Below, piece by piece: positions 1 through 60,938 of a stretch of DNA of 64,000 nt (positions within the stretch are counted from its first letter, which is position 1; each line of letters opens with the position of its first letter). A program made the translations under genes and the position numbers. Source of the DNA: Ceratodon purpureus (Eukaryota; Streptophyta; Bryopsida; Pseudoditrichales; Ditrichaceae); assembly GCA_014871385.1 (NCBI GenBank), contig CM026426.1:97490861-97554860 (forward strand), written 5' to 3'. The notes below the pieces were generated by a model, which saw nothing but the letters and a program-made list of their open reading frames with translations, ran no database searches and was not told the origin of the DNA.

Positions 1-27
1 GTCACGTATTCTTGTCCCCCTGTGTAG

Positions 28-3000
28 AATGCAGTTAATGGCCAAAGTGAGGCCTGTTGGAGAAGTGGGAGTCCAACATTTGGAGCACGAGTTTGTCAGG
101 GGATACAGTGATGGGGACCGGGTTATGTACATTTCCTTGTACAACCACGAAGAGAAGTTAGCCGATGTCACTGAGGAGATCAAGGCCGACTGGAGCCCGT
201 GTTGGCAAAAAGCGAATGATGATTTCGAATTGGCGATTCAAGGCGATTCCGCCTGGAAGCAATTCTCTGGGAAGATGTTCTACGTCTGAGAAGGTAATCA
301 TCGCCTTGCCGCATGGTTCAGGCATATCAACACTCACCATACCGAGGATCCAGCATGGCATATCTCTGTGCATTGCATTGTCCTTGACCCACGAGGTCAT
401 GTGGGAAACCTTCTTCATGCTATGCAAGATATCAACTGGTAAGAATTTCATCTCATCTTTTCGTCAACTCCGCGCTTATTACCTGCTTCCATTTACACCA
501 TTTGCAATTCTTTTAATACAAATCTTGTTTTGAGGTCTACAGAGAATGATCACGTCAAAAGTAATCTTCCGGCAAAACTATTTCGTATTCGCGTTTTGGG
601 GTGATGAAATTGGAGGAATTTAAGGACCTACTCCATCCAGAGGAATACTAGATATCTTTAAATCAGAAACTGTCTACTCCATCGTGGTTTACTTTGCCAA
701 CGAGAGTCTTCATCGCCTTTCTTTACCGTGTAAAAACTTGGTTATTTATATTCTACATTTCCTTTACTCTATTTAATCTTTTGTTGTAAGTAACTATACT
801 GTGACCCTGTTTTACAGCGAGAAATTGCGGTGGCATCAGACGAAGCTGCCAGAATCTACAAGGAGAAAACATCGGCTGACGAACAAACTCCGTCTGGTGT
901 TTGGGACGCCATGACAGCGGCTTCGAACAACATGGTCGACACTATTAAGAAGAAGGACTTCACCAAGCTATTGGCCATTGCCAATCCCAAGAATGGAGAT
1001 GACTTCTTTGCCGAGGTAAGATTTAAAACCACTTCCTTAATAGTCAATTCATAAGTATTGCACTCTCAACAAATTCATCTAATTCTGTATATGTTGTTCT
1101 GTTCTTAGATCAATCGGCATTACAGTGACGCCAATAAACCGGAGATGACTGTGGACAAGCTTCAAAAGATTGTCCCTGCAGCTGTGAATGCCAAAGTCAA
1201 AGCTCGTTGGCTGAGGTGGAAGAACTCTTCACCTAGTTCCCGGCTTTCTTATTGATTTCTGCCACCAGAATTTAAAGAGGCAGACCTCGACCATTGGTTG
1301 AACAAGGCAACATTCTGGGCTGCGGTATAGTACCTTCAAACTTTATTGTGAATGATGTAAATTTTTTATTTCTTGCATATTTTTCTGAATCTTAACTACC
1401 TTACTTTGATGTTGCAGCTGGAGGAATCGGTCACCCGTGAGTTTGAAGACATCTGTAAGGCCGAGAACTTTGTCATGAAGTGGAAGTCTATCCCGGGTAT
1501 CCTGCGACCCGACGCATATGTAGAGAGTTGGCGTATTCTCTTATGGGAGAAGGCATTCCCCACATTCTTCAGTTCCCGCGCAGAGAAGGCTTTCAAAAAG
1601 AAGTCGGATTTTTCCAAATTCCCGGGGGCTGCAGACGCGGTGAAGTGTGTGACATACCGGTATTACATTTAGAATGTCCTTTTTGAATTCCAGTTACATC
1701 TTCCATTCATTGAGTTTGACGTGTAGAATTCTAATCTATTTTAGTTGAACTTGGTTAGGTACTTCAAGAGAGAGCCGCTTTCAAAAGGTGCCATTCAACA
1801 AGAGCAGCTCCCGAAGTACTTTGCTGCGTGGATTCAGAAGGATTCTGACCAGTGTATCTATACTCCTCAGCAGTTGAAGAGGTTCAATACCCAGCACCTT
1901 CAAGCCGGTTGTTGGTATCTCGATTGCATTCGTGGTTTTGTTATCAAGTCCAAAGCAGAGCTGAAGTCTGAGCTTGATGGAGGATCTTCGGCTGTTGAAG
2001 ATTCTGCAGACGGTTCAGAAAGGCCGAAGGCCTGCAGGATCAGTCATCTGCACCTCCAACGAAGAGAGGGAGAGGGCGGCGACTGCGACCACTGGGTTCC
2101 AAGTCCCAGGCCTCACAGGATACTGGTGCGGAGTCTTCCGCACCAGGGAAGGAGACACCCATTGCTTCTCCAACCGCAGACGTCCCAATACCAACTTCAA
2201 CCACATCGAATGCGCCTTCATCCATTAGTGCTTCTGAGATCATCAGAAGTCTCATTGAGCAGAGGAAGGTCAAACTCTATCCTCAACCAACTTCTTCCAC
2301 AGGAGCTTCGATTTCCACACATGTTTCCATCTTCAACTCCTCTGTGCATTCGATGTTGCGGCGAAATAAGAGATTGGAGACAACAGGTGGCCACCCAGAT
2401 TGGATCAAGACTCAAGACTTCATTCGCAAGGTATGTTCCGATATTTTGACATTTCTTAGATACATCCACCTCTACTCGTTTTATAGTTTCTAACTCTGCT
2501 TTCTTGTTCCCTCAAGTTTGGAGCAGGCCGCCAAAACAGAGTTCTGGGCCGATGCAAACAAGAGAACTATCTGGGAGTCGACTTGATCATTGCCGACATC
2601 CCTGAGAATCTTCCCGTCCCTTCCGTTTCCAATCCCCTCACGAGTATTCCGCCTTGGAACTCTTGCTCCAAGGATTATGTGTACGACATCTTCCATTTTG
2701 CAGATCAATACCTGCAGAAAGATGGTGCCCTACCCTCATCTACAACACTGATCAGAACCTGGCTAAGGATATCGAGGAAGAAGCTGAGGGTGGTGACTTC
2801 GTGCTTTTCAAGGACTGGTGGGGCGTCAATGTACTCGGCCTGACTTCTCCTACGAACCCCGAGAACTTGGTAATTTTATCAGAACATTTCCTTCTCTTTA
2901 CTTACTGATAACCCTTCCGCTTAATTTTACTCACTAGTTTTGCTTGACTGCAGACTATGCGATTCTGGATTCGCGTCTACGTTCGTAGTGGCAGTACTTT

Positions 3001-3754
3001 CTCCTTCCTGACGAAGAAATCCTAGTTGATCCATGGGGTCCTCAACATTACCAAGAGTGATGCCATTTTCAACTGGACCGGTGCGGAGTCGCAACAAATG
3101 AATGGGGACGTTCCGTGGAGAGGACCAAGGGAGGAAACCCATGAGATGATGCAGAGCATAACTGGAGAGCTCTCGGAGCCCGGCGACATTGTCCTCGACT
3201 GGAATGCAGGGACAGGTAACTATTCATATATATCTCCGCTTAATTATTCCTCTCATTTTTTCCACAGTTTCTCATTTCTTTGTTTCTCTCCGAGTTTCAG
3301 GGGCCTCCATCAAGGCTTCCCAGGCTATTGGTCGTCACATTCTAGCTTTTGAGGAGGACGAAGCCATATTCAACGCTATTCTCAAACCGTGCATGGCTAG
3401 ACCATTCGCCATGGGCCCTCCTAAACATCCTAGGCCGGCAGCAGCAGACGAAGCGCCTCCAAAGAGACCAAGACCTGATAAGTGGTGTAAGTCTTCTATT
3501 CTTTGTTCAAATTATCCAAGCATTGCTTCTCTTTGCACCTCTACGTACTCAATCTAACCACAATCGGTTTTATACTTCCGGACTACGCAAAGGGCTTAGC
3601 TCACGCGTTTCAATCTGGAGCCCTTACATATGTTCCTAGTCGGCCAACTACTTTTGATCCCAGGGCCCTTCTATTCGTCGATGCAGAGGCTGTAAAAGGA
3701 GATTCAGAGTCATCTAGTTCTGAGAGTGGAAGTAGCGATTGTAGCATGTTGTGA
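28..3754 (+). pseudogene. ParB/Srx-like domain joined to beta-class DNA methyltransferase-like domain, decayed copy
   Basis: Approximate exons, judged from GT-AG borders and the partner copy in Z: 28-438, one fuzzy exon near 540-700, 819-1014, 1110-1325, 1418-1659, 1758-2430, 2517-2870, 2954-3215, 3300-3486 and 3575-3754. The first exon has a ParB/sulfiredoxin-type EGNHRLAAW motif near 290-316, with an in-frame TGA just before it. The middle is helical and unrecognised. Downstream, DLIIADIPENLP sits where beta-class amino-methyltransferases carry DPPY/W. It is followed by DIVLDWNAGTG and AIGRHILAFEEDEAIF, which match the motif I (SAM-binding) loop and the following strand. The order IV then I is typical of the beta class. 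The tail is acidic and serine-rich. Breaks seen: at least two in-frame stops, a frame change near 2030 and a shortened last exon. Function is inferred; a role in DNA binding or modification is likely, catalysis doubtful. Confidence 0.72.
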
Positions 3755-4017
3755 GTTTGAAGGAGGCTTCAGTCTATCATTGTTTTCATCTGATTTGATT
3801 TGATTTAATTGAAGTTTTATTGCATACTCCTTCGTCTACTCTACTGCAAACAACCTAAACTTGTTATGATTCTCATTTCCAGTTCGTATCCATGTATGTA
3901 AAGAATGAAATGTCACATCTGTAATGCTCAAAATGTAACATGCACAATGAAATGTTACAACTCAAATGCTCAAAAAATATATATATATTGCTGTAATTAC
4001 TTTCTTAATCATTCATG
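3755..4017. other. Short spacer between convergent genes of X
   Basis: AT-rich, with a small AAATGT/ATGCTCAAAA duplication around 3905-3975 and an (AT)n run near 3978. It probably holds the 3' ends of both convergent transcripts. Confidence 0.4.
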
Positions 4018-4581
4018 TTACCTACTCTTGGGAGAGATCCAGATATCATCTCTTGGAGAAATTTTCTCTCCTTCCGGCACATCCAAGAACTGATTCCCAT
4101 TGGCCAATAGCAATGACCTCAACTGACCTAACTCAACGCAACTAAGTTCTCCAAGGGACGCTGTCTCTAACCTCTCGTTGTAAATTGGATTTGCAAGTTT
4201 CCAAGAACTCCTAAAAACACTCCAGTTGATGTTGAACCGACTAACTTCGTATTCGTCCTTCGGACTCGAATGGCGACCCTCGTACGAAAAGTAATCCCAC
4301 CTCGCTAGCCGAAGGCATGCGTATTCAGGACTGCTGTCAATCTCACGGTTCCACCTCTTCGACACAGCACGAGCGTTCTCGACATCTTCAAACGTAATTA
4401 CAGTCGGAGGAGTCCAACCCTGCGTTGCACTACTACCTATATGATCCCAGGGGTTGGGCCCATCCGCCATCCGCTTAAGCAGATCCTGTAAAATTGTTAC
4501 GCATGCAACGACCTCAAATGAATCACCCATACCTTCAAACAACTCCCTAGCAAGTACAAGCTTAAGTTCTACAGAAATCAT
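4018..4581 (-). CDS. Small protein of element X, weakly F-box-like
   Basis: An open frame of 187 residues whose first Met is at 4581. The middle holds ITFEDVENARAVSKRWNREI followed by YACLRLARWDY, which recalls the second half of an F-box (ARAVSKRW). I would not call it F-box without a profile match. The C-terminal half has a conserved ELGQLRSLLLANGN stretch and ends with IWISPKSR. A clear homologue lies in element Y at 33050-33590, same orientation and same position relative to the TIR, so this is a regular cargo gene of the family and not noise. It is convergent with the ParB-methyltransferase gene. This copy is uninterrupted, unlike the one in Y. Confidence 0.65.
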   Translation of the reverse strand: MISVELKLVLARELFEGMGDSFEVVACVTILQDLLKRMADGPNPWDHIGSSATQGWTPPTVITFEDVENARAVSKRWNREIDSSPEYACLRLARWDYFSYEGRHSSPKDEYEVSRFNINWSVFRSSWKLANPIYNERLETASLGELSCVELGQLRSLLLANGNQFLDVPEGEKISPRDDIWISPKSR

Positions 4582-4920
4582 TGAGCTAATACAACTTCAA
4601 GGACGTCTGCTAAGGTTTATATAGATCGTTGCTTGACACTTAAGCTAGAAATGGTCTTAGCTAAAGACGAAGAATTCTTCGACCAAGACAAGCAGATTGA
4701 CTTGGTATACATCTTGGTTTCAGCAACTCCATTATTGTACACGAATTCTGAAATATGCCACAAACTTTTAGGACCATTTCTTTTTGATGGTTTTGAGTTT
4801 TCTTATTCCTAGAATTATCTATATTAACGGTATCAATATTTTATGTTCTGATCTAAAAACAGCGTGCTGGAATACTCGTATCTTGATCCAATAAGGAACC
4901 AACTCTATAGGATTGTATGC

Positions 4921-4950
4921 ATGACGTCATCATGACATCAGCCCTAATTT
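4921..4950. promoter_or_regulatory. Paired TGACGTCA-like block upstream of the small X gene
   Basis: Reads TGACGTCATCATGACATCA followed by GCCCTAATTT. Two bZIP/TGA-type cores in a near-palindrome. The same block occurs in Y (about 34006-34035) and Z (about 60624-60653). It lies between the small minus-strand gene and the TIR, so it could be that gene's promoter or a transposase site. Confidence 0.5.
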
Positions 4951-5063
4951 GTACCTCGGTAAACAGACTTAAGAAATTCTTACCAGATATAACCCTGAAT
5001 TCCACGATAATATACTCTTTTCCTATAAAAGGTAAGAAATTCATGCCTTAATTTAGTAATTTT

Positions 5064-5076
5064 CCACGGTTATAGG
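5064..5076. repeat. Subterminal conserved box of X
   Basis: CCACGGTTATAGG, identical (as reverse complement) to boxes at 25148-25160 and 60498-60510 and identical in sense to 34148-34160. It lies about 105 bp from the terminus. Likely a recognition site for the mobilising protein (inference). Confidence 0.65.
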
Positions 5077-5181
5077 ATCTATTTCGCTTTTGAAAATTTG
5101 GCTAATTGTCAATTCTGTGCTCTCCATTCTGTGCTCACCGCTCTCCGCTCTCCGCTCTCCGCTCACATACGAATTTCTCCC

Positions 5182-7840: not shown

Positions 7841-9330
7841 ATGCCGAAGAACAAGAAGCAGAAGAATGTGGGGGAATGGGCGGACATATACGATGACAAA
7901 CCGAGCTTACGTAGCAAGGATTATAGTACGGCATTCATCGTGGAATTTTACGAGGAGAACACCCTTGTTTCATTGAACAATTGTTACGTCCGGTATGAGG
8001 AAGATGGGACCAAGAAATTCAAGTCAGAGATGGAGGTAAAGATTATGGATCATTTGATGCATCTGCACTGGGAATCCAAGAGACAGAAGCGCGGTTACCT
8101 TCAGTTCGTGGAACAGCGTGCACATGATGCGTTGAGGAATGCTCGTGACGTTGTGTCTAAGTATGCAAGATAGCATAGGGGGGGAGTCGAGGCCTTCAAG
8201 GATGTTATTTCAAAGGCAGATTGCTTCCAGAGACTAATGGTGCCCTTGAGCTCAAGAAAGCATCTACGGATCTCTGTTGAATGGTGGAATACTCCAATTG
8301 GGATGGAGACGGCGGCCGACTTACGTAGACGGCATTTGACTATCTTGTCAGACTACGCACTTTTCTATTACTTGGACAAGGAAGTTCAGAGAGGTGGTTA
8401 TGCTACCATACGTAGAGTTTGTATCGAGGGAAACCTGGAAATCCCACCATTCTAGGAGTTTGCTGAGAAACGGCCGCTCAATTGGTCTATGAGGCCGGAT
8501 TTGGCACGTGTGGACCACAACAACGAATCTCTTGCGATAAGGATTCCCCATCATGGTGTCATCCGCTTCATGGCCATTCATGAGAAGGAACATTTCAGAT
8601 TCATGTTCTGGTGGAACGGTGGGACCCTTTGAGCCATGCTACAGAGAGACAACGAGGCCCCGGATGACCTCCCCATCGACTACATCTTCAGTAGGAATCC
8701 AGAGGACAGTCCGATTCTAGGAAAGCGTCTCCGACTTTTCCGAAGTAAGCGTACAGAGCTTGCTTGGGCATTGTGTAACATCATAGATGCTGTGCACAAA
8801 TACGGTTACCTCCACAATGACTTGTCACCGGACAACATCCTACTTCACTTTCCGGAAGATGAGTCCAAGATCTACATCGGTGTTTGTGATTGGGGCTTGA
8901 TGACGAAGACACTAGAGAACAGAAGGTCGCCTTGGGTTTTTGAGAGTGTCCATCAGAAGGAGGAGACTATCAGAAGGAGGAGACTATGAGGAGGCGATAC
9001 TGGGTGGATCCTCGCGTGGTATACGTACACAAGGAAAACCAAGATATTCAAATCATTCTAGATTTGACGGTTGCATCGGAGGATTTTGCAGCTGCGAAGA
9101 TTGCGGCAAAGATCAACAGGGGCAACATGTGCACGGCATACCACAAAGCGGAGCCAGTAGAAACACGCCATTTCAAGAATATCGGAGAACTCGCAATGGT
9201 TTTCGAAGGTTACCTTGAGAGAGTTTGCCAAAACAACAGAGGAACGATTGGTGGACTCGGACATCTTATTAACCGTTTCAGAGATACACACAACTGGCCC
9301 ACTCCCTACAAGCACTACCGCATGGGGTAG
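7841..9330 (+). pseudogene. Protein-kinase-like cargo gene of P
   Basis: One intronless frame of about 490 codons from ATG 7841. It has three in-frame stops (8171-8173 TAG, about 8453 TAG, about 8630 TGA). A 17-bp tandem duplication at 8952-8985 shifts the frame for the last 115 codons. The C-terminal half has HNDLSPDNILL, a kinase catalytic loop (HRDLKPxN with the Asp and Asn kept), then CDWGLM, a DFG-like magnesium motif with Trp for Phe. The N-terminal half (MPKNKKQKNV...) has no glycine loop that I can identify. It is the left gene of P and convergent with the next gene. A kinase is unexpected in a hAT; it could act on host or transposase proteins (speculation). Confidence 0.68.
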
Positions 9331-10269
9331 TAATATGGAGAGGCATATCTACCTTTCCGAATTTCTATAATTTCATAATGTTTTTTTTCTTACCGGACGG
9401 CGGGCATAGCCCTCAGTAGTGAATAGTTATATTTAGATTCTAAATTATGATGAGATGTTGGAATCTCAATTTTTGTACATCGGTCAATATTTTGTTTATA
9501 AAGTTTATTTGCATTTGGTTCAAATCTGGTCTTGTGTATTGAGATTGGTCTATTTCCGTCCCTCGTACTCTCTAGAAAAAGGATTTGCTCCATACATCCA
9601 GCTAGAACTCGATAGTCTCTATTGTAATTATGAAAATGATGTGATATGTGAATTGTAACCAATATGCTTTGTACGTTTTAGTCTTAGAAATATTGGCAAA
9701 CGTATACTAAGCTTCTTTTTGTGAAGACGAAAGCGTAAGGGCTGCATAACATGATTGCTCATAATCCCCGGTACAAACAAATAGCTTAAATATAAATATG
9801 CATCCCTCGAAAAGAATCATTCACGATATTCTTATTAATTTAGCAAAAAATATATTTGAAAATTATTGTGCATACGTGTCTTGAGATTCATAATATTCAA
9901 CTGGTCATAACCCATGTCAATGGTAAGTTGTCATTTTAAAAATAGTGATATTGATATTAATGTGCACTTAGAATACCGCTAGGAGAAGATTAAAAAGACA
10001 AATTCCTTTCAAATGTCAAGACAACTACAGTATAGAAGACAACACAACTACACTCTATTCCACTAATTCTATCTATTTTGTTTGCAATATGAGGCACGTG
10101 CCAATTTTCTGGAGTCCATACATCTTAAACCTCCACCTTATAAAATGCAAACTATGTACACACTATGCTTGCATCTTTTACTTTACGCTGTAAATTTGTA
10201 ATATGTGATGTCCACATTAAAGACTCGGTACGCTCCGATGCTGTAGAAAGTACTACCATGCACCCCATT
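9331..10269. other. Spacer between convergent P genes
   Basis: AT-rich. No supported gene or repeat seen; it probably holds both 3' ends. Confidence 0.4.
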
Positions 10270-11637
10270 CTAATAGTCTCCCCTCCACCCTAATCCATCG
10301 TAGTCATATGGATGATAATAGTTCCCATCATTGGATAGTTCGCTTGGACCTCCCCGATCGTACGTTTCTTGTGGCCCGTGCCCTGCAGAATTTGTCGAGG
10401 CTCTCAAAAGTCTCTCTCTCTCCTCCATCAATCTTCGATTATCCCGTCTAAGGTGAAATGCATGATTCTCCATCTGTAGTACATAATTTTGCCTTGTCCG
10501 CTCCAACTCTAATTCTTCCTCAAAATAGCTATCTCTTACAACTCGACCGGGAGGGTATATAAAAGGAGGAGGTGGTACTCTGTCATCGGGATGAAGTACG
10601 TTGCGGTTTTCCCCCCTATTGTGATCAGTACCGTCGTTGTGATAACCTAGAGGTGGAGGAAATATTGCGTATGGAGGGGGAGTTCCGTAATGATCTCTCG
10701 CAGGTGTTCGATGGCGAGGACTAGCACTCCTTGGAGGACTCAGTATTTCCGACCAGCCGTCGTCATAGTTACGAAAGTATCTTGATCCCGTTGCATAATC
10801 CAGCCAAGGTCGTCCCCCATACGGTCCATACACATCATCCGCGAAGTCAAAGGGTAAATCAGCTCCTTCGGGTTCCCCGTAGCCATAGCCTCGTTCGTGG
10901 GGTCCCACGTCTTGACGATCTCGCGAACGGTGTCCCCCGTGGGCAGAGAATTGTCCATACTCCTCATGGTTGGTACGCGATAACTCTCTGCCACGATGCC
11001 CTCTGCGATTCCTGGGATTTTCGTTTGAGCGACGTCCTTGATAGTTGTCATCATCATCATAGCTTAAACGACGTCTCTCCTGTTCTTCATCATTATATTC
11101 GATGGCTAGAGTTTGTATTCCTGCATCTTGTGCCGGTGGACTCCGACGGTTTGAAATATGTAATGGAGGACAATCGCTATGTCCACTCCAGTCTGTTACA
11201 AGATCCATGCTGTCTCTGTTCATTCTATCTGTCCTCAGGCCCGAGACTGTGGTCCAGTCAACCCTCTTGTGTAAGACTATCTCCGCCCACACCATTGCCA
11301 TATTCGAATACAACATGATATGAGGTCGGGAGTTCTGGATTCGTGCAGCTCGAAACACCTCGTTATATCGAATTTTGAAATGATCACTTTCGAAATTGTC
11401 GACCCTGATCTCACCCCGTGTTGCCTGTTTCTCCGCACCCTCGGTATGTAGATGTACTGGGATCAACTTCATGAGGTGCTTCATCTTCACATATTCCTTG
11501 CAACTTACCATCCTCCATGGTGATGGTTCCTCCTCCCATCCAAACTCGGCTACGCAATAAGGGTCATTCCTAGCCTATGGATCCAAGGGGTGTTTCTTTT
11601 TTGGAGTGGAGGATCCTCCCCGGTCGTTACGAGGCAT
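10270..11637 (-). pseudogene. P gene b: shared N-terminal domain, low-complexity middle, coiled-coil tail
   Basis: The start is taken at ATG 11637, which opens MPRNDRGGSSTPKKK, followed by one in-frame TAG about 21 codons in and then 413 uninterrupted residues. The N-terminal part, CVAEFGWEEEPSPWRM, CKEYVKM and MAMVWAEIVLHKRVDW, matches the start of P gene c (IVAEKGWESV, CKTYVKM, CSMVYAELILKRKISW), so the two are paralogues. The middle is rich in R, D, Y, G and P. The end (ELELERTRQNYVLQ... RLMEERERLL) looks like a short coiled coil. Gene b is divergent from gene c across a 4.5-kb spacer. Function unknown; the shared domain may bind DNA or partner proteins. Confidence 0.65.
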
Positions 11638-16112: not shown

Positions 16113-19100
16113 TATGGCGGATCCGCAACATGATGAGATTGGAGGAACCGGGAAGAAGAACTGGCCGAAGGGAGCCAGCCACAACTTTTCGTGGGAGATC
16201 CTAGACAACAAAAACATCGTAGCGGAAAAAGGTTGGGAATCTGTTGGTGACATTTACTGGAGTGCAAGACGTATGTGAAGATGTATCACATTGATAAGTT
16301 ATGGCCCCGAGAACAACACGAGTTGAACACACGGAGTTTTACCTGCAAGCCCTGGTCATGCATGGATGACCTTTCTTGCATCAAGCATATGAGGTCTGGA
16401 CTACTATGTTTGGGCAACGTAAGCCTAGCAAAGGCCATTTCAATTATACCATTTGCAGTATGGTATATGCGGAGCTAATATTGAAGCGGAAGATTAGTTG
16501 GTGTACGTACCCCACTACGAAAGACAGGCCGTTGCAAATTGGATGGATGGTAAGAGACATTCCGGATTTATGTCTGATAGATCCTTTGCAAGCGAAGAAG
16601 GTCGTAGCGGAGTTTCGAAAGGGGCAGTGGCTACCTCTGAAGAGTTTCCCAAAGAATGAAGTAAAGAAATTACAGAATGAAACTCCACATCGTGCAGAGG
16701 AAAGGAAGCCCGTTTCCTCTGCCAATGTGATCGCTACGATGTTCCCTACTGCCACGGAAACCAATGTCCCTGTTATTCCTAGAGCAAACTTGGGAATCGC
16801 GGTGAAATCATCCAACGATACAAAGGGCAAGGCAGACGTGGATGAGGTGGAAGTTGAGGTGGACAATGACTGTTCAACACATCCTACGGCTGCGGCAGCT
16901 GGATGATCCAAGCCTCGTTCAGTGGACGATGGTCCGAGGTCCTTGGCAATAGTACAAGTGCCTACCGAAGAGGATAGCACAAAGGATGCAGTTCATTCCA
17001 TTTCAGAGATTATGGAGATGGTGAAGTCGACGCCGAACAATGAATCATTGAAGGAGTTACTAGATTTTAGCATCAAATGGATGGAGGTGTGCTGTGATGA
17101 ACAGCGTGGGGGCTTAGAGAATACCACGGAGGGAGGCGATGCAGGAAAAACCATGGAGGAAGTGCAACAAATTCATAATGTGTTGAAGATTGCACACACC
17201 CTGAAAGAAGGGGCTTCCGAAATAGGCGCTATGGCACCATATCTCATAAACATGGTTCAAAATCTCATAAACATGGCTCATGCATTTGGAAGTATCACTC
17301 CGGGCATTATACACGGTGCCGTCGGCTTTGAGACTTTGGTATCTTCCATGAAGCCTCTTCTGGAAGACCGTGTGCAATTACGCGAAGAGAAGGTGGCGCT
17401 GAGTAAGGATTTAATGGAGGCAACGCAGACAATCGAGAAATTGACAGAAAGGTTGGACAATGTGAAGAAGAGTTGGAGTGCACAATTGGAAGAATGCGAG
17501 AAGTACCACCCTATAGATAAGGAGAAAAGCAAAATAGAAGAAGTGAGGCCTAGGGTGAAGAAAGAAGCCGTGAAGGTGGAAGAAAAGGATCGTGTCATTG
17601 AAGTACTGAGCGATGATGAGGATTCCGATGACCTCGATCTTTCTAAATTCTCAAATAAAAGTGGAGATGGGGCCACACAAGGGATGGCGTCTCAGAAGTC
17701 TAAAATGACATCTGGTCCAGTTCCATTGGACATTGGCTCTAGCCAAGCAACACCAAGACATGAGAATAGAGGAAAAGGGCCAATGGATGATTCAAAAGAA
17801 GTAGACATTCTTTTACGGGATTTGGAGGTGGCTAGAAGGGAAAGAGACGAGGCCCGTACGGAACTGGAGAAGCTGAAGACCACTATACAAATGGTAGACA
17901 ACACACCATGTTCCACAAGGGCATTATCGTGGCTTGGTTAGGTCCACAAAGTGCGAGATAAGGAGACAATAGTCTCTAAAGCACAACAGGATATGAAGAA
18001 ATGTGCAATTACTTCCATGGATGTCGAAGAAGCTATCCAATCATCTTTACAGAAGTATAACGAGGCAGCAGCCAAGGGCGGGGAGAATGCAACAAAAATC
18101 ACGATATGGCGCGATGTAGGAGAAATGATGGAGCGCACATTACATAGTTCCAAAAATAAAGAAGGGATAATTGACTGGGCGCTAGAGGTCGAGGAGGGGT
18201 GGATGCCGTACGATGTACTATCATCTCATTTGGATGAATCGAAACGTGTGGTTATCCATACCCGCAAACCGTAGGAGGAATATTCGAAGGAGACGTGTCC
18301 CATCTGTCAACAATATTTTGGGCCGGAAGGGGCCTTTGAGATGGGACATTGTAATCACAAGTTCCACATAACCTGCATCGCGAAGGCTGCTTTAAACAAC
18401 AAACAGTGTGTTATGTGCCGCTCTTCAATTAGTTCACGTTTTTACGAGATGCTGGGACTACAACACGTGATGCCGCCCGGGCATGAGTTTGATCGGTGGA
18501 ATTTACCACTAGACCAACTACCTAAGAAAGAGCTGAATTATTATGAATGGGGCAAATCACTGGCTTGGAACCCGGAGACAATGACTCACCAACTATCTAC
18601 GGCTAACGATGCCGGAATGGACGATCTTTCATGGATGACACACGACTATGAGGTGGAGATGAGGGCACGTGAAATTCCGGATGCCAAGGAGCGAGAATTT
18701 TTTTGTAGGAACTTCGGTGGACATTGGAGTATACATGGCAATCGCTTCTTTCGGTTTCCAAAACCGGAAGTTGTGGTAGATGCCGACGGTAAGAGAAGAG
18801 AAGTAGAACGGGACTATGGCCAACTTGATGAGTACAAGATGTATGACAGAACCCCGGTTGGGAGGGCACTTGTATTGGCCAAACTAGAAGAAGCCATTCA
18901 GCATCGTCGCACTTTTACAGAGGAATCCTTCAAATATTCGGACCTAGACTACTGGGTGATCATTAAGAAGTTTGACGATGCTCTTCAGAAAATAGTTTGC
19001 GACTGGAGGAGGGCACTTCGTGCGGAGGATAATTCCTCTCGTTGCTCACGCAATAGGATTGAGAAGATTGTGCAAGAAACAGTAGCCAAGATTGAGAAGG

Positions 19101-19294
19101 CAAAGGAGTTGTGGAACGGGAAGAATTCCAAGAAGCGCAATCGAGACAACCCTTATGAAGATGATCCCGAATGGGGGGAAGATAATCGTCGTTCTTTGGA
19201 TCGCGTGGAAGAAGAATATCGATCGGGGGGTACGATTACACATCCAAGCCAGCGACGCCAAACTCGGAGGTTAAATGCAAACAATGAACGCTGA
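16113..19294 (+). pseudogene. P gene c: shared N-terminal domain, coiled coil, RING-H2 finger
   Basis: About 1,060 codons without introns from ATG 16113 (MADPQHDEIGG). There is one frame change near 16270 and three in-frame stops (about 16906, 17941, 18274). The N-terminal domain is paralogous to P gene b. Around 17040-17560 it is helical and heptad-rich; 17560-17660 is acidic (VLSDDEDSDDLDL). At about 18298-18420 lies a RING-H2 finger: CPIC, then MGHCNHKFHITC, then CVMC, giving the C3H2C3 ligand pattern. The last 290 residues are unrecognised and end basic. RING-H2 domains usually act in E3 ubiquitin ligases; here that is inference. The partner gene on the other strand is the hAT transposase. 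Confidence 0.72.
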
Positions 19295-19752: not shown

Positions 19753-22700
19753 TCATGCCACGTAAACGCTGTCGTCCTTCACTTCGGCCCCACTAGGACC
19801 GGAAGAATCGTATTTGTCATCGCCATCGCTCTCGCGTACCTTCTTCACCCTCGCCTTAGTCTTCTTCTTTGACTCGAATGGGTTCAGGAATTTCTTTGGG
19901 CCATTCGCAACATCCAAAGGAGTTTTTGGCTTCCCAGGATTGAAAGCCAACACCTTCTGAGTCTTGTCTTCAGCCCTCCGCTTGGACATGGCTCTAGCAC
20001 GGGTTTTTTCAGGAAATATGTCCTATTTCTCCAAAGCCAACTTTGGCCCAAAGAGATGCCCAATTGGAAGTCCGTCATCAGTAGAGAGAATGCCCGGGTC
20101 CGCTTGTCGGGTTCGGGCCAATCTCTTCCTACATTTCTCCGCTACTTCAGCAGCCTTAGCATCTGTCTTCATTTTTTAGACAAGGCAACCAACCTCGTGG
20201 ATGATTCGAACCCACCAACTTGGACCCTAGTCTTTGCGGTTCCAAACAATGTCCGAGACGCACCGGGTACGGGTACGGGCACCTCCTCCTTTGTAGAGGG
20301 TGGAACCATTTCCTCCTTCAGGCGGTTGAAGTTTGGAGAAACAACCTTAGAAGTATCAAGGGTGGGGTCTTCCTCTTTCTTTGGTACGACCAAACCCACG
20401 GTAGTATGAGATGATCCTCCCCGCAGAATCTTATCACTGTATAGTAAACCGTCTCCATTCAGAACAGAAGCAAAAGGAATCGTATCCTCCTCGTTGGTAC
20501 CTTCTTCTTCGACATCATCATACTCGAAAACACGCTCCATCGGCGCAGGAAAACAACGGGATTTCCCTTTCGATGAAACCTCGAGGTCGTCAACTGGGTT
20601 GTCAATAGGGGGCTCAATTGATAGAACGTCAAAGGGTACATCAACATTAGACTCACTAGAGTAGTCAACGTCGTTGGTTTCCACGGCCTTCGGATCCTCC
20701 TTCACCTCCAACTCCCCATAGAATCTCCCTAAGCCACTCAACTTGGACTGGGAAATTATCTTGGAATTTGTATACACAAACACGAGGTCATTAGCCCTTT
20801 CCGGAAGTAAACGGTTTTGCTTCCTGTCGTGGACAAAGGAGTAGCTACTCCAATTCCGCTCGCATGAAGAAGAAGACAGGGGCTGAGCTAAAATCCTTTT
20901 TGGAATTGGGGAAATGAATTTACCAGCGGATCCGTATATATCCCACCAACCAGAAGGCGGCAATTGTGACTTAGAGGAGTCACGTACATCACGAAACGGA
21001 GGATAAGCTTCACGAAATGCGAAGAACTCTTCAATGACCACTTCCTTCAATGCAGGAGGAGCCATCGACAACAAGACCTCCTTGGCCGATGCCATTGCAT
21101 CAGTATCAATGTGAAGGTCCTCATCGTCAATCAGATAAGGGTTTAGAAGCGCAGCAGCACACTATAAGGGTGATGTGACCATGGCTTTACGCTCATAGAA
21201 TGAGTCCTCGCACAAATCAGCATTGTCAGAGTCTAATGTGAAGGGGTCATGGCGTAAAGAGAGAACATGCTTCTCAAGGTTGCGGAGAACGACGTAGGCT
21301 TTACCCAATGCCGATTCCTTCGCATCAAACTCTCGTAGGGCATATACAACGGGACTCGTCATCCACTTGAAGTTTGCACATTGCTCCCAGAAAACGTCAT
21401 CCAAGACAACCCTCTTAACATCGCGTGAGATCTTCGCTTTGTCACGGGCAGATAAGGTCTTCTTCGTTTCGTAGTTTCTCCAGTCAAGATCCACAACGCT
21501 CTGCTCCAATGCTCCTCAAACCTTCAGTAGACGCGAAATCATAATGTAGTGCGATGCAAACCTAGTCTGACCAGGCATCAGCAAGCTAAGTTTTGCCTTG
21601 TGCTTTCGAAATACCGAGAGTGGCATTTGCCTTATCTTTATGAACTTAACCAAGTTCTTAGCCCGATCTAGGAGCTCCTTCACCCACTTCATCTTACTCC
21701 AGTCCTCCAGCAAAAGGTCCACCGCATGGGCAGCACATCCTTGGACAAATATGGATGGATAGAGTGCTTGGACCAACTTTCCGGCATTAAGCATCACCGG
21801 AGCATTATCGTAGCATACTTGAATGATGTTTTGTTCTCCAACTTGTTGGATAAACTTCTCAATGACGGTCGCTACGAAGACGGCATCCTTCTCTTTCCCA
21901 CTCGTGTCAACGGCTCCCAAGAATAACTCATCAGCGGGAGATACCAGCATTGCATTTATTAGAGGGCGACTGCTTACAGAAGTCTATCCATCGAGGGCCA
22001 ACGTTCCCGCGTACTTCCTAACACTGGAAAAAATCCTATCATTCAAGGAAGTCTCCAAATCAGTCCTTGCTTGGGCTAGTAAATTTGTTCGGAGATGGTG
22101 GAAAGATGGAGGTGTGTATGATCTCTTCATGTTGGACGTCTTCAACACCGCGTCCTTGAAAGAGGCACTCCAATCCACGTTAAACAAGATACTGTTCTCG
22201 TAAAAACATGTGGCCCATGCTTTGTCGCATTCCCGCCTCTGAGTCTCTTCGAAGCCCTCTTGAAGGGTAGATTGCCTCTTTGCCTTCGATGGAGGAAATT
22301 GTCCACTACCTTCCCCCGAAGAGTGGAAATGGAAGGTACACCCTCACCCAATAAGACGGGTTCATTCTTCAGAGTTGAAACCCTAGATCCAGCGCATGAG
22401 TCCACATCCATGGGAGTCTTCACTCTCGGGGATATATTGCCACGAGTCACAGGGGAAGTACTCTGCTCCGACATGAATATTCTGGAGTCGTTAGGGAATT
22501 TGCCACCGCAATTCTTGAACAAGGACTGTATAGCGGGTGACAAATTAGTGCAACGACCTACTCCACTAGTCCGTACCCCTAGAACTTTGTCATAGCCCAA
22601 ATGACTGAGCATCCGCTCAATCCTCTTTGCGAAAGTGTTCTTGCATAGTAGTCATTGAACCATCTCAGTCTTCTTCTTCTCCGCATCGATCATATGGACT

Positions 22701-23640: not shown

Positions 23641-24962
23641 AAGACTTTACAGCCCACATAGACACAACCTTAGTACAAACCACCACTTCCAAATATCACA
23701 ATACAACCATAAAATGGCCTCGGCCTACCGGCCTCGCCATAATACAAAACAAAAATATCAAATAACTTATAAACTAATACCGAATACTGTATCTAAATAT
23801 GGACAAATTCAAACCACACCATTTCCAAAACTCCACACCCAACTACAACAATTTAACGCACCTATTTCCAATTCCTTAAAAAATTTACAAACACCCCCAC
23901 CCACCAAACCACACTCTTACAAAAATTACAAACAATACCAAAATACAAATCAAAAACTAGAAGTTACAGAAAAACTATCTACATTATTTATCTCCCTACA
24001 TACTTCTTATCTTCTCTATCCCTTATTAACATCTCTTCCCACCTCTCTTCTTCTCCTTTTCAAAATTCCTTCTTATCTCTCTTCTTCCTTCTTTTCATTT
24101 TCTTTCATACTTTTTTTATATATTCATACTTCCTATTATCAAATCCTATATTTTCTTACCCTCCGCTCTCTCTCTTTCCGTAACTCTATTTAATGTTCCC
24201 CCTCCTACCTACCCTTATCTCCCCGTTGGCACCTTCTCCCTCTCTACACTCTCTCTCTATCCCACAACCTCCAACTCTCCATCTTCAAACCAATAATTTC
24301 TCTTAAAAAATCACAATCTACAAAATACTAAACCACCATTTCTACATATTCCTTATTCATTTAAACATTACACATATCACACTATCTCTAAAAATCCTCT
24401 AAAAAGAAACCCATCACACCAGAAACTCATAGTAAGGGGCGATATTGAGACCCGCCCAGGACCCATGCCAAATTTACTTAAAAACCACCCACCTGTACAC
24501 AAATGATGCTGTAAAACCTACTTTTTACCCTGTACCATAAAACTCCACCCAGAATATCAACACCTTGCAAACTGCTTTTCACCCCTCCTCAATACAACGC
24601 ACCTAGACCATATCACAGTTAATACTGATTACCCCCACCTCTCACACTACATTTTACAAATACAACATCACCCATCACCTAGAATCTTATACACACTCAT
24701 CACCACTCTTAGCCCATCACATGAAACATGCGACCAACTACTCATCGAGATTCCCAACCCAGACTGGACAACTCTTCTTTTGGAAAAATGTCCAATTTAT
24801 CCAACCCTCTAGAACGCCACATCCTCACCAAACACCCTTACATAGAATTTACACAAAACAATCTTCCACTAATAAAACCACCAGACACCATACATATCGA
24901 CGTATACAACTTTGTACATCAACACCATGATTCAATAAACCTTCAACTGTTAACAGAAAAAT
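23641..24962 (+). mobile_element. LINE, ORF2 5' region interrupted by element Y
   Basis: G-poor, A/C-rich plus strand, same composition as 34275-40130. Near 24428-24475 it encodes LIVRGDIETRPGPMP, which resembles the 2A-like motif (DxExNPGP, here with Arg for Asn) found early in ORF2 of several LINE clades. Several stops follow. The frame reaching the Y insertion reads LQLLTEK and continues as FPFLPNTLLEEIL after one target copy at 34275, so the coding phase is kept across the insertion. Confidence 0.7.
24955..24962. repeat. Left target-site duplication of Y
   Basis: AGAAAAAT, identical to 34267-34274. If the TIR is taken to start TGGGGG, the duplication shortens to GAAAAA. Confidence 0.82.
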
Positions 24963-25020
24963 GGGGGTAGCTTGTATGCGTGCGGCGAGCAGAGATTTGG
25001 AGAGCGGAGAGCAGAAAATG
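24963..25020 (+). repeat. Y left terminal repeat
   Basis: GGGGG terminus, then TGCGTGCGGCGAGC and GGAGAGCGGAGAGC units. It matches 34200-34266 in inverted orientation, shorter by some units. Confidence 0.78.
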
Positions 25021-25147
25021 AGGCCCTAAATCTAAAAACAGTAAAGTTCTTATTAAAAATAAAAACTATTATTAGATTATTTGATTATTTTAGGAATATT
25101 CTAAGAATATTCTTAGAATATTCTTATTTATAGTATTTAATGATGAC

Positions 25148-25160
25148 CCTATAACCGTGG
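25148..25160. repeat. Subterminal conserved box, Y left end
   Basis: CCTATAACCGTGG, identical to the box in X, Z and the Y right end. The spacing to the terminus is about 80 bp longer here, with AT-rich AGAATATTCT repeats in between. Confidence 0.65.
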
Positions 25161-25895
25161 ACTGAATTACAGTTTTTTAATAATTTTTACAAAGTTCCCC
25201 TGCCTTTTTTTTCAATATTCCTAAAGTCGATACGACCGATAAACCGTACTTTTTGAATCCTATGTCATTTTCTTTACATTACTACATTTCTACCAATCTC
25301 ATCTACATGGCATTCAACATTTTTTTATTGATTGTTAATCATTTGAATTAATTTCCCTTCCCATCTTCTTGGATTCTATCCATCTTCTCAATTCCAATTC
25401 TATCTATCTATTATATCCCTCCATTACATGTTTTATTGCGTTGATGTTAATTGCCATTTCATCTTCTTATTTTGCCATTCATTTGCTTCTTATATATTCT
25501 TTGTTCATTTTCAATTTAATATTTTTCTCCCCTTTCAATTTTTATTTTTGAATCATATTTTCCCTTAATGTACACACACCCTCTTTTAGATGCATTTATT
25601 GAGTTTAATTTTTTTTTTTGATTTATTTATTTATTTTTTAAATTTTTAAACGAACTTTCTCTAGTTCCCCCTCAATTTTTGGTTTAGGGTATGTTGTTTA
25701 CAAATCAATGAAAACAGTGTCAACAAACCCAGTCACGCCATTCAGTAGGATGAAATTCGTTTATCATTATATGGTCCAGGTTTCAAGGGCGCCAAGCATC
25801 TAGCTCTTGGATATTTAAGTAGTGGCAATAGAAGGTCACTTCCTCTTTGTTCATTCTCTTCTTGAAGCAAGTCCAAGGAAGAGCGTGTTTCGGAT
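25161..25895. other. AT-rich leader of element Y
   Basis: T-rich, no gene supported. Confidence 0.35.
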
Positions 25896-27620
25896 ATGGA
25901 AGATGTCAGGGATACTGCTCTCTCACTTGGTGATGTCGTTGGCCCATTTCATCCATATGTGGAGGTCGATGGGGAAGACGAGGCGAATGGGTGCAATGGA
26001 GGGCATTCTGGAAATGATGACGTGAATGTAGAATTAGACGTGATAGGAGACTTATGGCTGTAGAAGAGCCAGGTAGTCTCGTAGTACTTCAGGATGAGCC
26101 GGTTGTGCCTTTGCCACCTCATGCATACTCCAAGGTCGGGAAGATTCTACCAAGGACTTATTCTAGGGAAGCATTACGTAGAAAGAGTGAAGCTTGTCCA
26201 TTGTTGAAACGTCCCCGCCTACAATAAATGCCAACTAGGGAATGAGCAATGAACGTCAATGTAGCTTGTCCTGTAGTGCAGGAGGAGGTTGGTAATTATG
26301 CTGAAAATGATAGTGAGATAGCTAAACGCATTAATTTCAAAGAATTAAATGGGTTTTGAAATGTATTGATGGCATTAGAACAGTCCAACTGTTTTAGGGT
26401 ATAAAGAACAAAGGCCACTTGTCCAACTGAAAGCTATTGTTACTCAATGTAATAAATGTGAATGACAAAACCTTTATATTGAAATAGGCAATACGAGATT
26501 TGCATTGCTGACTCAGTAAAAGGAAAAAGTCAATCACCAATGACTAAGTATCCCCATTAACCACCGTCCACTATGCGAATGCGTGTCTAAAAAAGTACGC
26601 TTCGGCCTCCTCTTTTTTGGCCAAGGGGTGAGTCAAGATTCCACTCTCTAGGACTTGATTGACCTCGTTGAAACTAAAGGTAGGCGCATGGATAAAAAGC
26701 TTGGTCTCAGATCACGGTTGCAGACCTTCAAAAGGATGTAATACAAGTGTTTAGAGTACGAAAACTGAATCCTGTCTCAAAACTTAGTCATTGTCTTCTT
26801 GAATGCAGGGCAAGTGCAACCAGGTTAAGAGCTGATGGTGATCTGGTATTGTGTGATGGTAGGAGTAATGCCGAAATCCAGCCTGATGATGCAACTATGG
26901 CCCGGGTGAGGTATCATAGTGACAGAACGGAAGCAAGCTTTGACTCGGATTCGGAGGAGCCCATGCAGTGTCAGCGATGGTTTTGGAGTTGAATTTGGAG
27001 TTGAATTTGGAGTTGAATTCGATGCAAATTCGCTCCGGCACGGGCTCTAAGGCTAGTGGTTGCGGGTAGTCCCCCACTGATTCCTGCCCCGGCCCCGGCT
27101 TCACTTTCTCTTGCTTGCCATTGCCCATGATTGCTCTTACACCTCTTCCGCTCAGGTTGCGCCTATTACTGCAAGGAACGATGGAATTGGAGGTTGCAGG
27201 TCGGGGTTGTAAGACTGCTTGACGGATCCAAGGCGCCCCTAGAGTAACTATAGAGGGTACGAGAGTGGGAGAAGGAGAAGGTGGTGAGTGGAAAAGTAGC
27301 TGCCATAGGTGGCTGGTTTTACAGCGAAAAGTTTCCGCGAGGGGAACCATATCATATCATTGTAGGAGCACCAGGAGCAATGGGAGGAAAGCCTAGGTTA
27401 ATGATATGCCAAGTGGAGCGAGCGTAATTGCCCACCAAGATAAGTTTTGTCGGAAATGTCTTCAAATGCCTCATGCTAGTGCCTCGGATATGTATCAGCG
27501 TAGATGAATTAAAAACGATTCGATCATGGCCAACACTTATCGAGTCTGCTTTTCGGCCAGTATTTGTTGATCACTTCATCTTGACTATCCCTGTGTATGA
27601 AGCAGTAGAACGACATTGAG
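25896..27620 (+). pseudogene. Unrecognised multi-exon gene remnants in Y
   Basis: Coding-like pieces: 25896-26036 (MEDVRDTALSLGDVVGP..., acidic); a second frame at about 26058-26228 ending LRRKSEACPLLKRPRLQ, like a nuclear localisation signal; 26811-26992 after an acceptor-like TGCAG, acidic; and 27320-27620 with YHIIVGAPGAMGGKPRLMIC, one stop, then about 60 more residues. I cannot show that these form one gene, and I recognise no family. Three tandem TTGGAGTTGAAT units sit at 26983-27018. Confidence 0.3.
26983..27018 (+). repeat. Three perfect tandem copies of a 12-mer
   Basis: TTGGAGTTGAAT repeated three times, read-through in all frames on the minus strand as NSKF repeats. Confidence 0.9.
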
Positions 27621-29485
27621 TTGGATTCTACTAAATTTTAGGATTCTGGAGGTGATTTTACTCCGAAGCTTGTTTCTCTTCTTCATGATTTCAAACTTGT
27701 TTCCAGATAACTGCCATTCACATGAAACGGCAAGATGTGTGTGCAGAAGGATTTAGCCGGGACATGCGTAGCAGATGCACAGAAGCATCTTCATTTCCTT
27801 TCCGTGGGTGAACGAGAATTTTCCTGTTTAGCGCTTGAGAATTGCATCATTCATGCTGGGAATTGAGATGCTGAACTGCTGTTGTCCAAATAATAATCTG
27901 AATCCAGGCTTGCAATGAGATATCTCAATGCACTGCAGATATCTTTAAGATAATAGCACTTCTGAAGTGAAACCAAAACCCTTCTTTGACATTCTAGAAT
28001 GTGCATTACAGTACCCTCAAACAAAGAAGAGCCGACAAGCAGACCCAGTGACTGGCAACGTACTCCGTCGATAGAAACTATACAACAAGTACGGTTGTTG
28101 ACTATTGCAATGAAGTGTAATGAACATCTGTTTGTAAAGAACTGAATGTTTACCTGACTTTTTATCTTCCAGTCTAATGGAACAATTTTCACCTTTCGAC
28201 ACAACCTTCAAGACGCCCTCCTACGCCGACTTGTTAATGTCCCATTCATCCGCCCTTCAATCAACACAGATCATCAAGGTGACTACACTTCTAGAAACAG
28301 ACTAATCCACCAAAAGATCCCTGCTGTAAATTTGAAGCAGAGCACCTTTCTGGTCGACCATTTACTTGTAAGAAGCTGCACTCTTTCTTGGAGGTATCTA
28401 TGACAAACAAAATAAACATGCTACTCCTTTAGCCGGGTATTACAAACAGGAACAAAACCATACTAAGAGGCTCAATAATGTACTTTGAAATCCGGCGAGT
28501 CGAATCCTAAAAGTTCCAATGTAGAATGTAAAATTGACAAAACATGATGCATGACTTAGTTAAAACCACGACAATCGCAATGTCTTGTTGATTTCAAACT
28601 AAGTAATCCAAAAAACAACACTAATATACACTCAACATCCTTAAAAACAAAGTGATTTCCAACAACACCTCCCATAAACCACACATGCAATTCACAGTAA
28701 ACCCTATAAACACATCCAACTACTAGAAACACACAAACTCCAAAAACTACACAAAACACAAAAGAGATTGTTGAAAGCAAAATCTAAACCCTCTCACTTC
28801 ACGAAACTCTAAAACCAGTCCATCAAAGCAAGAAAACGACTATCTGGTGACAAACTCCAACACCGTCTTCTAAAACCTTGACCAGTGGGCTCAAAAAAAA
28901 ACCACAACAATCACACACAGCCCAATTCAACCTAAGTACTGAATTTCAAATTCCAGAGGTCTCGCACCATATACACATAGCATTCCTTCACTTGGAAGAG
29001 CACCAACTCCGCATTGCTCTCCTGATCATCAACCGTGACGCTCTCCATCCCTGCCGCCATATTTTCGAAATCGCGATTTCCCAATCATGCAACAATCCAC
29101 TCACCAATATACCCCAATGTACCCACTTAATTGCCTAGATCGACAAACATAACGCTCTCAGACCAATCAATTTGCTTGCTCTACTTGGCTCACAATTCCT
29201 CACTCGTCATCGTCATCCTTAGCATTCTTAGCCGGCTCGCCCTCCTCTCCGGATGCGTGTATCCTGAAGCTTCGCCTCGAGCTGACTACTTGCAATGATC
29301 TGTAGACCCTAGTGGAGCCTCACTTAGGCTAGATAGAACGCAATATGATCACGAATTGGTCGATAGAAAGGAATTCATAACAGAAGATAGTCTGGTTAGA
29401 ATAGTACATTATCTGCCATGACATTGTGACGTGGTGTTTTTACTCCTCTACGCAGCCTCTTATGGGCAGCGCGAGAGCTCTCCAG
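27621..29485. other. Y interior without a supported gene
   Basis: Mixed composition. Short frames only; no repeat or RNA recognised. Confidence 0.3.
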
Positions 29486-30520: not shown

Positions 30521-31135
30521 TTCTTTTCTTCCTCTTGTGATATATGTATTTTCGTGTGTAAGTTGTTCAATGTCTTGGTATTGCGTCGTGTGCCAAGCTC
30601 GGTTCCGTCTAGTGGATGACGTTGTGCCATTGTGGTTGTTGGATGGAGAGTAGTGAATGAAGACTCTGGCCGGGCGTTCACGGAGATGATGACTTTTAGG
30701 CCTTTGCTTATAAGATGTTCATGGTTTGAAATTTGGTTTAAACTAAATTCTTAAGGGCATTCTTCCCAACTATCGGTAACGGGAGTGGGTTTGACAAGGG
30801 AGAAGGAGCTGGATTTTCTCAGCTTAGGGGTGGGCAAGTGGTTAGGATCGAGAGGGACTTTGCTTGCCCAATTGCTTAATTTTGAGGAGCTCCTATCTCC
30901 CACTACCAAAAATTGCAGCGGATTTAGGAAGAGATAGGGAGGTGTATTTCATAAATAGTAAATTGAATTCATCTGTAATTGAATGGCTGGTCACTTTTGG
31001 AGAGATAAATGAGTTTTTACTTTATAAATGCCATTTAATACTCTGATTCTTCTTCTATATTTGACCCTAATTCATTACAATTTCCGATTACTCATTGTGC
31101 TGTACATATCTATATTGGATTTCACCTTTGAAAAT

Positions 31136-32140: not shown

Positions 32141-32153
32141 GGCAAAAAACCCC

Positions 32154-32842: not shown

Positions 32843-33049
32843 ACTATAGTGAGCTGTAAAAGGTTTTCTAGAATATGCGTTGAAGGATAATCTAACCATT
32901 CATAGATATCGATAGATACAAAGTGCAACTCATGTAATTAGCCCGAATGCACATATAATTGAAAGACTCATAATATACATACATCACTACTCATATATAA
33001 CTGTATTGCATTCATGATTTCTTAATCACACCAATCTCATCTATGCTTA

Positions 33050-34005: not shown

Positions 34006-34035
34006 ATACGTCATCATGACGTCAGCCCTAATTTT
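34006..34035. promoter_or_regulatory. Paired TGACGTCA-like block, Y
   Basis: ACGTCATCATGACGTCAG followed by CCCTAATTT; same block as in X and Z. Confidence 0.5.
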
Positions 34036-34160: not shown

Positions 34161-34199
34161 ATATTTTTTTTAATCAAATGGGTGTTCAAAGGTCAAATC

Positions 34200-60222: not shown

Positions 60223-60383
60223 TGGTGGAACAGCAGTTCCAGTCCACCACTTACGTGGACCGATAAATGAGGGGGGCGCCGCCTCTATGTGGACGGCGAG
60301 ATATTCCATCCCCAGTTTCTGATAACCCTCGCAACAGGCATACTCTCCATCTGCATGCACCTGGTTGCTCTCCAGTTCAACTG

Positions 60384-60391
60384 TAGACACT
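60384..60391. repeat. Presumed left target copy of element Z
   Basis: TAGACACT directly before the GGGGG terminus. Its partner would lie beyond the window. Confidence 0.4.
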
Positions 60392-60497
60392 GGGGGAAAG
60401 TTCATACGTGAGCGGAGAGCGTAGAGCGGAGAGCGGTGAGCGCAGAATGGAGAGCACAGAATTGACAATTAGGAAAATTTTCAAAAGCAAAGTAGAC

Positions 60498-60510
60498 CCT
60501 ATAACCGTGG
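60498..60510. repeat. Subterminal conserved box of Z
   Basis: CCTATAACCGTGG, 106 bp from the terminus. Confidence 0.68.
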
Positions 60511-60623
60511 AAAATTACTAAATTAAGGCTTAGTTTTGACACTTTTTTAAGAAAAAGAGTATATTACCGTGGAATTTAGGGTTATCTCTGGTAAGAATTT
60601 ATTACGTTTGTTCTCAAAGATAC

Positions 60624-60653
60624 AAATTAGGGCTGATGTCATGATGACGTCAT
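60624..60653. promoter_or_regulatory. Paired TGACGTCA-like block, Z
   Basis: AAATTAGGGCTGATGTCATG then ATGACGTCAT, reverse complement of the X block. Confidence 0.5.
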
Positions 60654-60938
60654 GCATACATTCCTTTAGATTTATCATGGGTTTGGGCAAGATACAATGA
60701 TCAGGCGTTGAGTTTTAGATCAAACAAATAATTCTTTCATAGGATTGTGTAAATGCACAAGGAAAAAAACAACTTTCACAGAACATAAAGGAGGCAAGGT
60801 ATACACGAGTATAAACTGGAAATGAGAATCATGAATATTTTAGTGCTTTGCAATAGAGTAGACGATGCAGTATGTAATCAACTCCACTGAAATCAAATCA
60901 AATTAAATGGAAACAATGATAGAGCGAGGCCTCTTTCA

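Follow-up and report, generated by a model that had tools for sequence, protein, structure and literature searches.

A transposon-borne gene of the moss Ceratodon purpureus that combines a candidate ParB-like region with a methylase-derived domain lacking catalytic motif IV

Proteins that join a ParB-like part to an amino-methyltransferase have been described in mobile DNA before. One of them is the accessory protein of the Ectocarpus element Sola1-1_Ec32, which is 1104 amino acids long and contains a ParB-like part together with an N4-cytosine/N6-adenine (N4C/N6A) methyltransferase; the same report also mentions cases from green and red algal transposons and proposes that the related algal proteins bind the transposon and modify it epigenetically (PMC12477816). 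ParB-methylase genes in algal transposons are already in print, so the kind is known (PMC12477816). Fusions of ParB with an N6_N4_Mtase domain are also described in phages (PMC12704722). Here, a gene of this kind is described from the moss Ceratodon purpureus, in a stretch of 64,000 nucleotides (assembly GCA_014871385.1, contig CM026426.1, positions 97,490,861 to 97,554,860) that is called the window below. It holds two decayed copies of one gene of about ten exons, copy A at 2-3754 on the plus strand and copy B at 60939-63983 on the minus strand. The C-terminal domain of the encoded protein derives from beta-class amino-methyltransferases, and the catalytic motif IV is missing from all 19 examined copies that cover the site. 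Judged from the sequences, there is about an even chance that this domain is a methylase fold that has lost catalysis and that a Mutator-like transposon retains as an accessory factor for binding the element's own DNA. In the open-access papers searched, which did not include the works cited for green and red algae, PMC12477816 was the one report of ParB-methylase genes in transposons, as far as titles and abstracts show; neither a moss nor a Mutator-like element carrying such a gene, nor the loss of its motif IV, was found in print.

Like the algal accessory proteins, the moss protein is large and joins a ParB-like part to an amino-methyltransferase, and its gene belongs to a giant DNA transposon whose transposase is encoded by the other strand (PMC12477816). 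It differs from them in its moss host and its Mutator-like element, and perhaps in the residues DIPEN at the position of motif IV. With the phage fusions, such as that of Anaeroplasmataceae phage NatCom_34063, it shares the order of ParB first and beta-class methylase second. Those proteins, however, measure 384-461 amino acids (ten full-length), and DPPY is present in 10/10 of those long enough, an eleventh ending before the site, whereas the moss protein is extended by a long middle region, its gene is split by introns, and its ParB-like part gave no significant match to a ParB profile.

Two further systems are relevant by their way of working or by their domain. VANC proteins, the accessory proteins of VANDAL elements in Arabidopsis, bind to a short motif, which builds up as tandem repeats, and bring about a loss of DNA methylation (PMC5735166). 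The moss protein would likewise be an accessory protein of what looks like a Mutator-like element (MULE), and the element carries short motifs in tandem; the binding of VANC is experimental, whereas that of the moss protein is a prediction, and the comparison concerns the way of working alone. Bacterial-type amino-methyltransferases in eukaryotes are represented by N4CMT of bdelloid rotifers and by the N4-methylcytosine methylase of Marchantia (PMC8885841). Rotifer N4CMT has the PF01555 domain and introns, as the moss gene does, but it keeps SPPY, is active and is a host gene rather than a transposon accessory gene (PMC8885841).

The descent of the C-terminal domain is supported by several searches. 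A sequence-only reading of the window had claimed a beta-class methyltransferase-like domain, and the Pfam family N6_N4_Mtase is indeed matched above its cut-off of 26.7 bits by copy B (32.2 bits, E 1.3e-7). Copy A, at 22.7 bits, and a single exon of a further copy on contig C9 (the C9 copy) taken alone, at 17.4 bits, fall below that cut-off. The top methylase family in PHROGs gives E 3.4e-9 for copy B and 1e-7 for copy A, a PDB chain of DpnA matches copy B at E 0.0021, and tblastn of copy B against phage methylases reaches down to E 2e-6 (527 records at E up to 10). In a comparison of hidden Markov models (HMM-HMM), a profile of the two copies matched one of three phage methylases with a probability of 96.6 and E 6.3e-10, values obtained with few sequences on each side and without a shuffled control. 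When the global alignment of these profiles is forced, VDLIIVDIPEN is paired with VDLILTDPPYN of the phage methylases, and motif IV stands before motif I, so that the order is the permuted one of the beta class. In the S-adenosylmethionine (AdoMet) motif I (DPFxGxG), the GxG and the following acidic residue are kept in most copies, while PF is replaced by W[NK]; most copies read DW[NK]AGTG followed by FE(E/D)DEA, and some read AATG or AGIG. Among public proteins, no relative was found for copy A at E 1 (best 7999 candidates) or for the methylase part of copy B at E 10 (633 candidates), and in IMG/VR 0/8 pattern-matching stretches were confirmed as relatives of copy B.

The loss of motif IV was followed through the genome in 20 stretches, fetched by coordinate from 150 scored loci of the ParB-like exon and hand-chosen for variety. 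The first methylase exon was found in 17 of them and the motif IV position was covered in 16, as three stretches gave no match and one match was short of the motif. Fourteen of these 16 copies read DIPEN or DIPED, one DITEN and one NIPEN, and none has (D/N/S)PP(Y/F/W); with copies A, B and C9, which also read DIPEN, the motif is present in 0/19 copies covering the site. Several of the fetched stretches carry stops elsewhere. In rotifer N4CMT, a change of SPPY to APPA abolishes activity (PMC8885841). A DPPT located 12 residues past the DIPEN start in copy B and in one fetched copy (L073) was considered as motif IV and rejected, for copy A has NPLT and the C9 copy VPPT there, and the place does not lie behind a predicted strand. 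Because the catalytic motif occurs in none of the 19 copies, the domain is filed, by its sequence, as derived from the N6_N4_Mtase family and not as an active member of it.

Despite this loss, the protein appears to have been maintained. Ratios of nonsynonymous to synonymous substitution rates (Ka/Ks) were calculated by the Nei-Gojobori method with our own script and bootstrap ranges. Between copies A and B, Ka/Ks is 0.275 over 763 codons, 0.18 in the middle region and 0.33 in the methylase (bootstrap 0.215-0.483; 0.32 and 0.21-0.48 in a second calculation); for the methylase of copies B and C9 it is 0.26 (0.17-0.39). For six copies whose read stretches contain no stop, 14/15 pairs give methylase values of 0.26-0.49. 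These ratios between subfamilies imply that, as the subfamilies diverged, selection retained a protein in which DIPEN stands where DPPY is expected. Since the active site is gone while the fold and part of the AdoMet motif are kept under selection, methyl transfer is the less likely job of the domain and DNA binding the more likely one. The sequence-only reading had proposed that the protein may mark, protect or bind element DNA: marking by methylation is unlikely, with motif IV absent in 19/19 copies and the domain under purifying selection between subfamilies, and binding is judged plausible from sequence.

The gene structure was modelled from the sequence, with predicted splice joins and a predicted start codon, without transcript support. 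About nine introns had been suggested, and about ten exons could be traced in copy A, all on the plus strand. The ParB-like exon (2..437, its 5' part lying left of the window) contains the motif EGNHRLAAW at 290-316 directly behind an in-frame TGA (287-289); better-kept copies read FYVWEGNHRLAAW in this region. Exon 2 (about 535..730, approximate ends) encodes STENDHVKSNLPAKLFRIR...GVMKLEEFKDLL, is 80% alike to the C9 copy and has a frame change and an internal stop. Three exons with no named domain follow (818-1015, 1109-1324 with a stop at 1253-1255, and 1418-1660), which make up the region of lowest Ka/Ks given above. The next exon (1760..2430, one frame change) completes this region and adds a low-complexity linker. 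Methylase exon 1 (2517..2869, one frame change) holds DIPEN at 2595-2609, and methylase exon 2 (2954..3214, stop at 3023-3025) ends within motif I: DWNAGT(G) runs from 3197, and the splice site at 3214 follows directly on DIVLDWNAGT. Both this motif and EGNHRLAAW are thus present where they had been noticed earlier. Methylase exon 3 (3303..3485) continues behind motif I with ASIKASQAIGRHILAFEEDEAIF, and the last exon (3584..3754) encodes an acidic serine-rich tail. The three in-frame stops at 287-289, 1253-1255 and 3023-3025 break copy A, as do the frame changes noted above in exon 2, the linker exon and methylase exon 1.

Copy B, the second of the two copies claimed, has minus-strand exons at 63983-63786, 63701-63486, 63390-63148, 63045-62380, 62294-61941, 61856-61587, 61498-61316 and 61112-60939. 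The exon at 62294-61941 has one TAG near 62255 and DIPEN at 62216-62202; the ParB-like exon, at 64807-64370, lies to the right of the window and has one stop. The proteins of copies A and B are identical at 557/772 aligned positions (72%), far beyond chance.

The N-terminal part is less easily assigned. The box II motif of the ParB/sulfiredoxin fold is (E/D)GxHR. Thirty loci were taken for an alignment of the ParB-like exon, of which 29 were read (L034 was dropped by the motif filter), yielding 17 distinct peptides, three with stops and 14 stop-free; 10/29 loci share one identical peptide. In the 14 stop-free copies EGNHRLAAW is near-invariant, with G, N, R, L, the first A and W invariant and EGNYR, KGNHR and RLATW occurring as single-copy variants. 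So little diversity gives profile searches low power. When these copies were compared by HMM-HMM with 11 phage ParB-methylase proteins over their N-terminal portions (Pfam ParB_N was tested for one of them and passed), the best local alignment falls exactly on box II (YVWEGNHRLAAW) with a score of 16.9. A tblastn search of the ParB-like region against phages gave no match, and relatives of the alignment were confirmed in 0/17 pattern-matching stretches from IMG/VR and in 0/96 from GTDB genomes.

The sequence-only reading had placed both copies inside one element with terminal inverted repeats (TIR). This did not hold: the copies belong to two separate, oppositely oriented elements, the second of which spans 60392-74498 with its own 9-bp duplication. 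A single 64-kb element with the two copies as inverted ends was also considered and rejected, since the element of copy B has its own ends and duplication and a third element lies between. The element of copy A has its right end near 5181 and runs leftward out of the window, where its left end was not found; its right terminal region (4901..5181, plus strand) includes a GCTCTCC tandem array at 5133-5164. The left terminal region of the copy B element (60383..60673, minus strand) includes the duplication GTAGACACT at 60383-60391, with its partner at 74499-74507, and a GAGCGGA array at 60410-60455. The third, related element (24963-34265, 9.3 kb, no strand assigned) is bordered by the duplication CAGAAAAAT at 24954-24962 and 34266-34274, and no ParB-methylase gene was found in it. 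Two element ends in the window share about 285 bases (87%) and a third end about 190 of them (72%); of the four ends that fall in the window, these three carry 7-bp tandem (heptamer) arrays. A small convergent open reading frame (ORF) at 4018..4596 on the minus strand, with no Pfam match above cut-off, separates copy A from the right end of its element, and the stretch 3977-4563 in this region matches positions 32993-33582 of the third element at 72%. Near the right end of the latter is a different ORF (32139-32675) with a weak Pfam Self-incomp_S1 match (20.1 bits, cut-off 24).

Five further pairs of ends were fetched by distance: one has a duplication, one (C9b) has unlike flanks, and three do not show both ends. 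The one with a duplication, at 76.06 Mb, is flanked on both sides by the 9-bp AACCTTCAC (read by eye). A 9-bp target duplication is thus seen in 3/5 elements with both ends seen, and the range given for MULEs is 8-11 bp (PMC6446971). In the left part of the C9 copy, on the minus strand, ORFs contain the MULE-type motifs D..D..C..H..E and a C-terminal CxC..CxH, also read by eye; the ParB-methylase gene of this copy runs on the plus strand, opposite to the transposase-like gene. Because of the 9-bp duplications and the transposase motifs, the family looks Mutator-like. Between these two genes (L039/L040, about 8700-11500 of the joined stretch) the C9 copy has a long ORF of direct peptide repeats (...EAVAPRNQREAAEENPLAEAMAAGSQLEAAKEMPLAEGHSVKNASKEVGADCGSGAA...). 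The two C9 elements, at C9:14.19 Mb and C9:14.37 Mb, share a flank: CGAATGCGC stands to the left of one and to the right of the other, which could reflect recombination between the two copies or a rearrangement of the segment. No Rfam match was found at the gathering threshold.

The carriage of the gene by a TIR transposon, as first proposed, is borne out by the genome, which shows a high copy number. A whole-genome search with the ParB-like exon gave 1836 first-look candidates, of which 150 were scored; the counts are minimum values, and copy B, for instance, is missing from the 150 listed. At least 150 matches occur, with each of C1-C13 represented; all of them span 133 or 134 of the 134 residues with E 1.6e-72 or lower, and 135 of the 150 scored have no internal stop. 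In the C9 copy (about 17.2 kb) no exon of the ParB-methylase gene that was read has a stop. Ceratodon purpureus has 13 chromosomes. The genome totals 362,488,568 bases in 151 contigs. The contig that holds the window, at 97.49-97.55 Mb, is 110.5 Mb long, and the other contigs of C1-C13 measure 16-29 Mb. With a published genome size of 360 Mb and sex chromosomes of more than 100 Mb each (PMC8000587), this contig is likely the U or V sex chromosome. The same contig, C6, holds 11/15 of the stop-bearing matches among the 150 scored, as a raw count.

Taken as a whole, the gene would serve a large Mutator-like moss transposon (about 14-17 kb) as an accessory gene, transcribed opposite to the transposase-like gene. 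Its protein would have a ParB/sulfiredoxin-like part at the N-terminus, then a long stretch that matches no named domain, then the methylase-derived domain. This last domain would no longer transfer methyl groups and would be kept as a DNA-binding, perhaps still AdoMet-sensing, module. Together with the ParB-like part it may load on the element's own DNA, most likely on the 7-bp tandem arrays near the ends, and such loading could help transposition or, by analogy with VANC, shield the element from host silencing. A more specific form of this self-recognition, tentatively held and less probable than the accessory role itself, is that the transposon has made a bacterial methylase into a non-catalytic protein of self-recognition: a conserved DIPEN would stand in for the active site, the terminal heptamer arrays would be read by the methylase fold, and the ParB-like part may load and spread along the element, keeping host silencing away.

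Several results weigh against this reading. For the methylase of copies A and C9, Ka/Ks is 0.61 (0.36-1.05) and not clearly below 1, and one close pair among the six stop-free copies reaches 0.91; selection is clear across subfamilies only. Unusual variants of motif IV might still support activity. Among the five elements with both ends seen, two, both of them C9 copies, have unlike flanks, and the transposase-like gene of the C9 copy has no Pfam match. Of the ParB-like domain claimed by the sequence-only reading, the motif was confirmed and the fold was not: the 14 stop-free copies match no ParB family in Pfam or PHROGs, nor does their profile in PDB. Of 60 column-shuffled profiles, one exceeded the box II score (18.5; the reversed profile gave 14.2), and the ParB identity is for this reason a lead, suggested by the EGNHRLAAW motif and the architecture.

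The alternative that survives best, though rather unlikely, is that the dead fold serves the transposition complex structurally or for dimerisation, rather than acting against silencing. A gene of its own, adjacent to the transposase-like gene and on the other strand, would suit such a function, as would the high copy number and the selection, but the terminal arrays fit this and an anti-silencing role alike. A still-active N6A or N4C DNA methyltransferase that marks or protects element DNA, with DIPEN as a tolerated variant of motif IV, is less probable again. The fold and the GxG-type AdoMet motif are kept in most copies, the domain is under purifying selection, and such a role is proposed in print for the ParB-methylase proteins of Ectocarpus and other algae (PMC12477816); the missing motif in 19/19 copies, the inactivation of rotifer N4CMT by the SPPY to APPA change (PMC8885841) and the additional exchange of PF in motif I for W(N/K) speak against it. 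A captured gene carried passively and decaying without a role for the element is very improbable, as the breaks in both window copies and its absence from the finds in the third element are opposed by the open ParB-like exon in 135 of 150 scored copies, the C9 copy without stops in the exons read and Ka/Ks below 0.5 in 14/15 pairs.

Other mobile elements share the window. Pieces of CACTA type lie at 52793-56713 on the minus strand (Transposase_21 (tnp2), 205.7 bits; DUF4218, 103.4 bits), and an origin of the ParB-methylase gene from CACTA was rejected, as the tnp2 gene (52.8-56.7 kb) lies outside both gene-bearing elements. Pieces of hAT type occur at 20169-21983 on the minus strand (Dimer_Tnp_hAT, 34.7 bits; DUF659, 96.4 bits). 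On the plus strand, ORFs at 34300-40054, probably of a non-long-terminal-repeat (non-LTR) retrotransposon (reverse transcriptase, 49.6 bits; RNase H, 58.6 bits), start immediately beyond the right border of the third element, and a RING finger ORF is located at 18275-19294 (zf-RING_2, 32.2 bits, cut-off 27.3).

Ceratodon purpureus can be grown in laboratories. An active site that is lost, yet conserved in its new form across many copies of the element, would mean that the transposon profits from the fold as such, and the moss family provides a case in which an element's recognition, and perhaps protection, of its own DNA can be tested.

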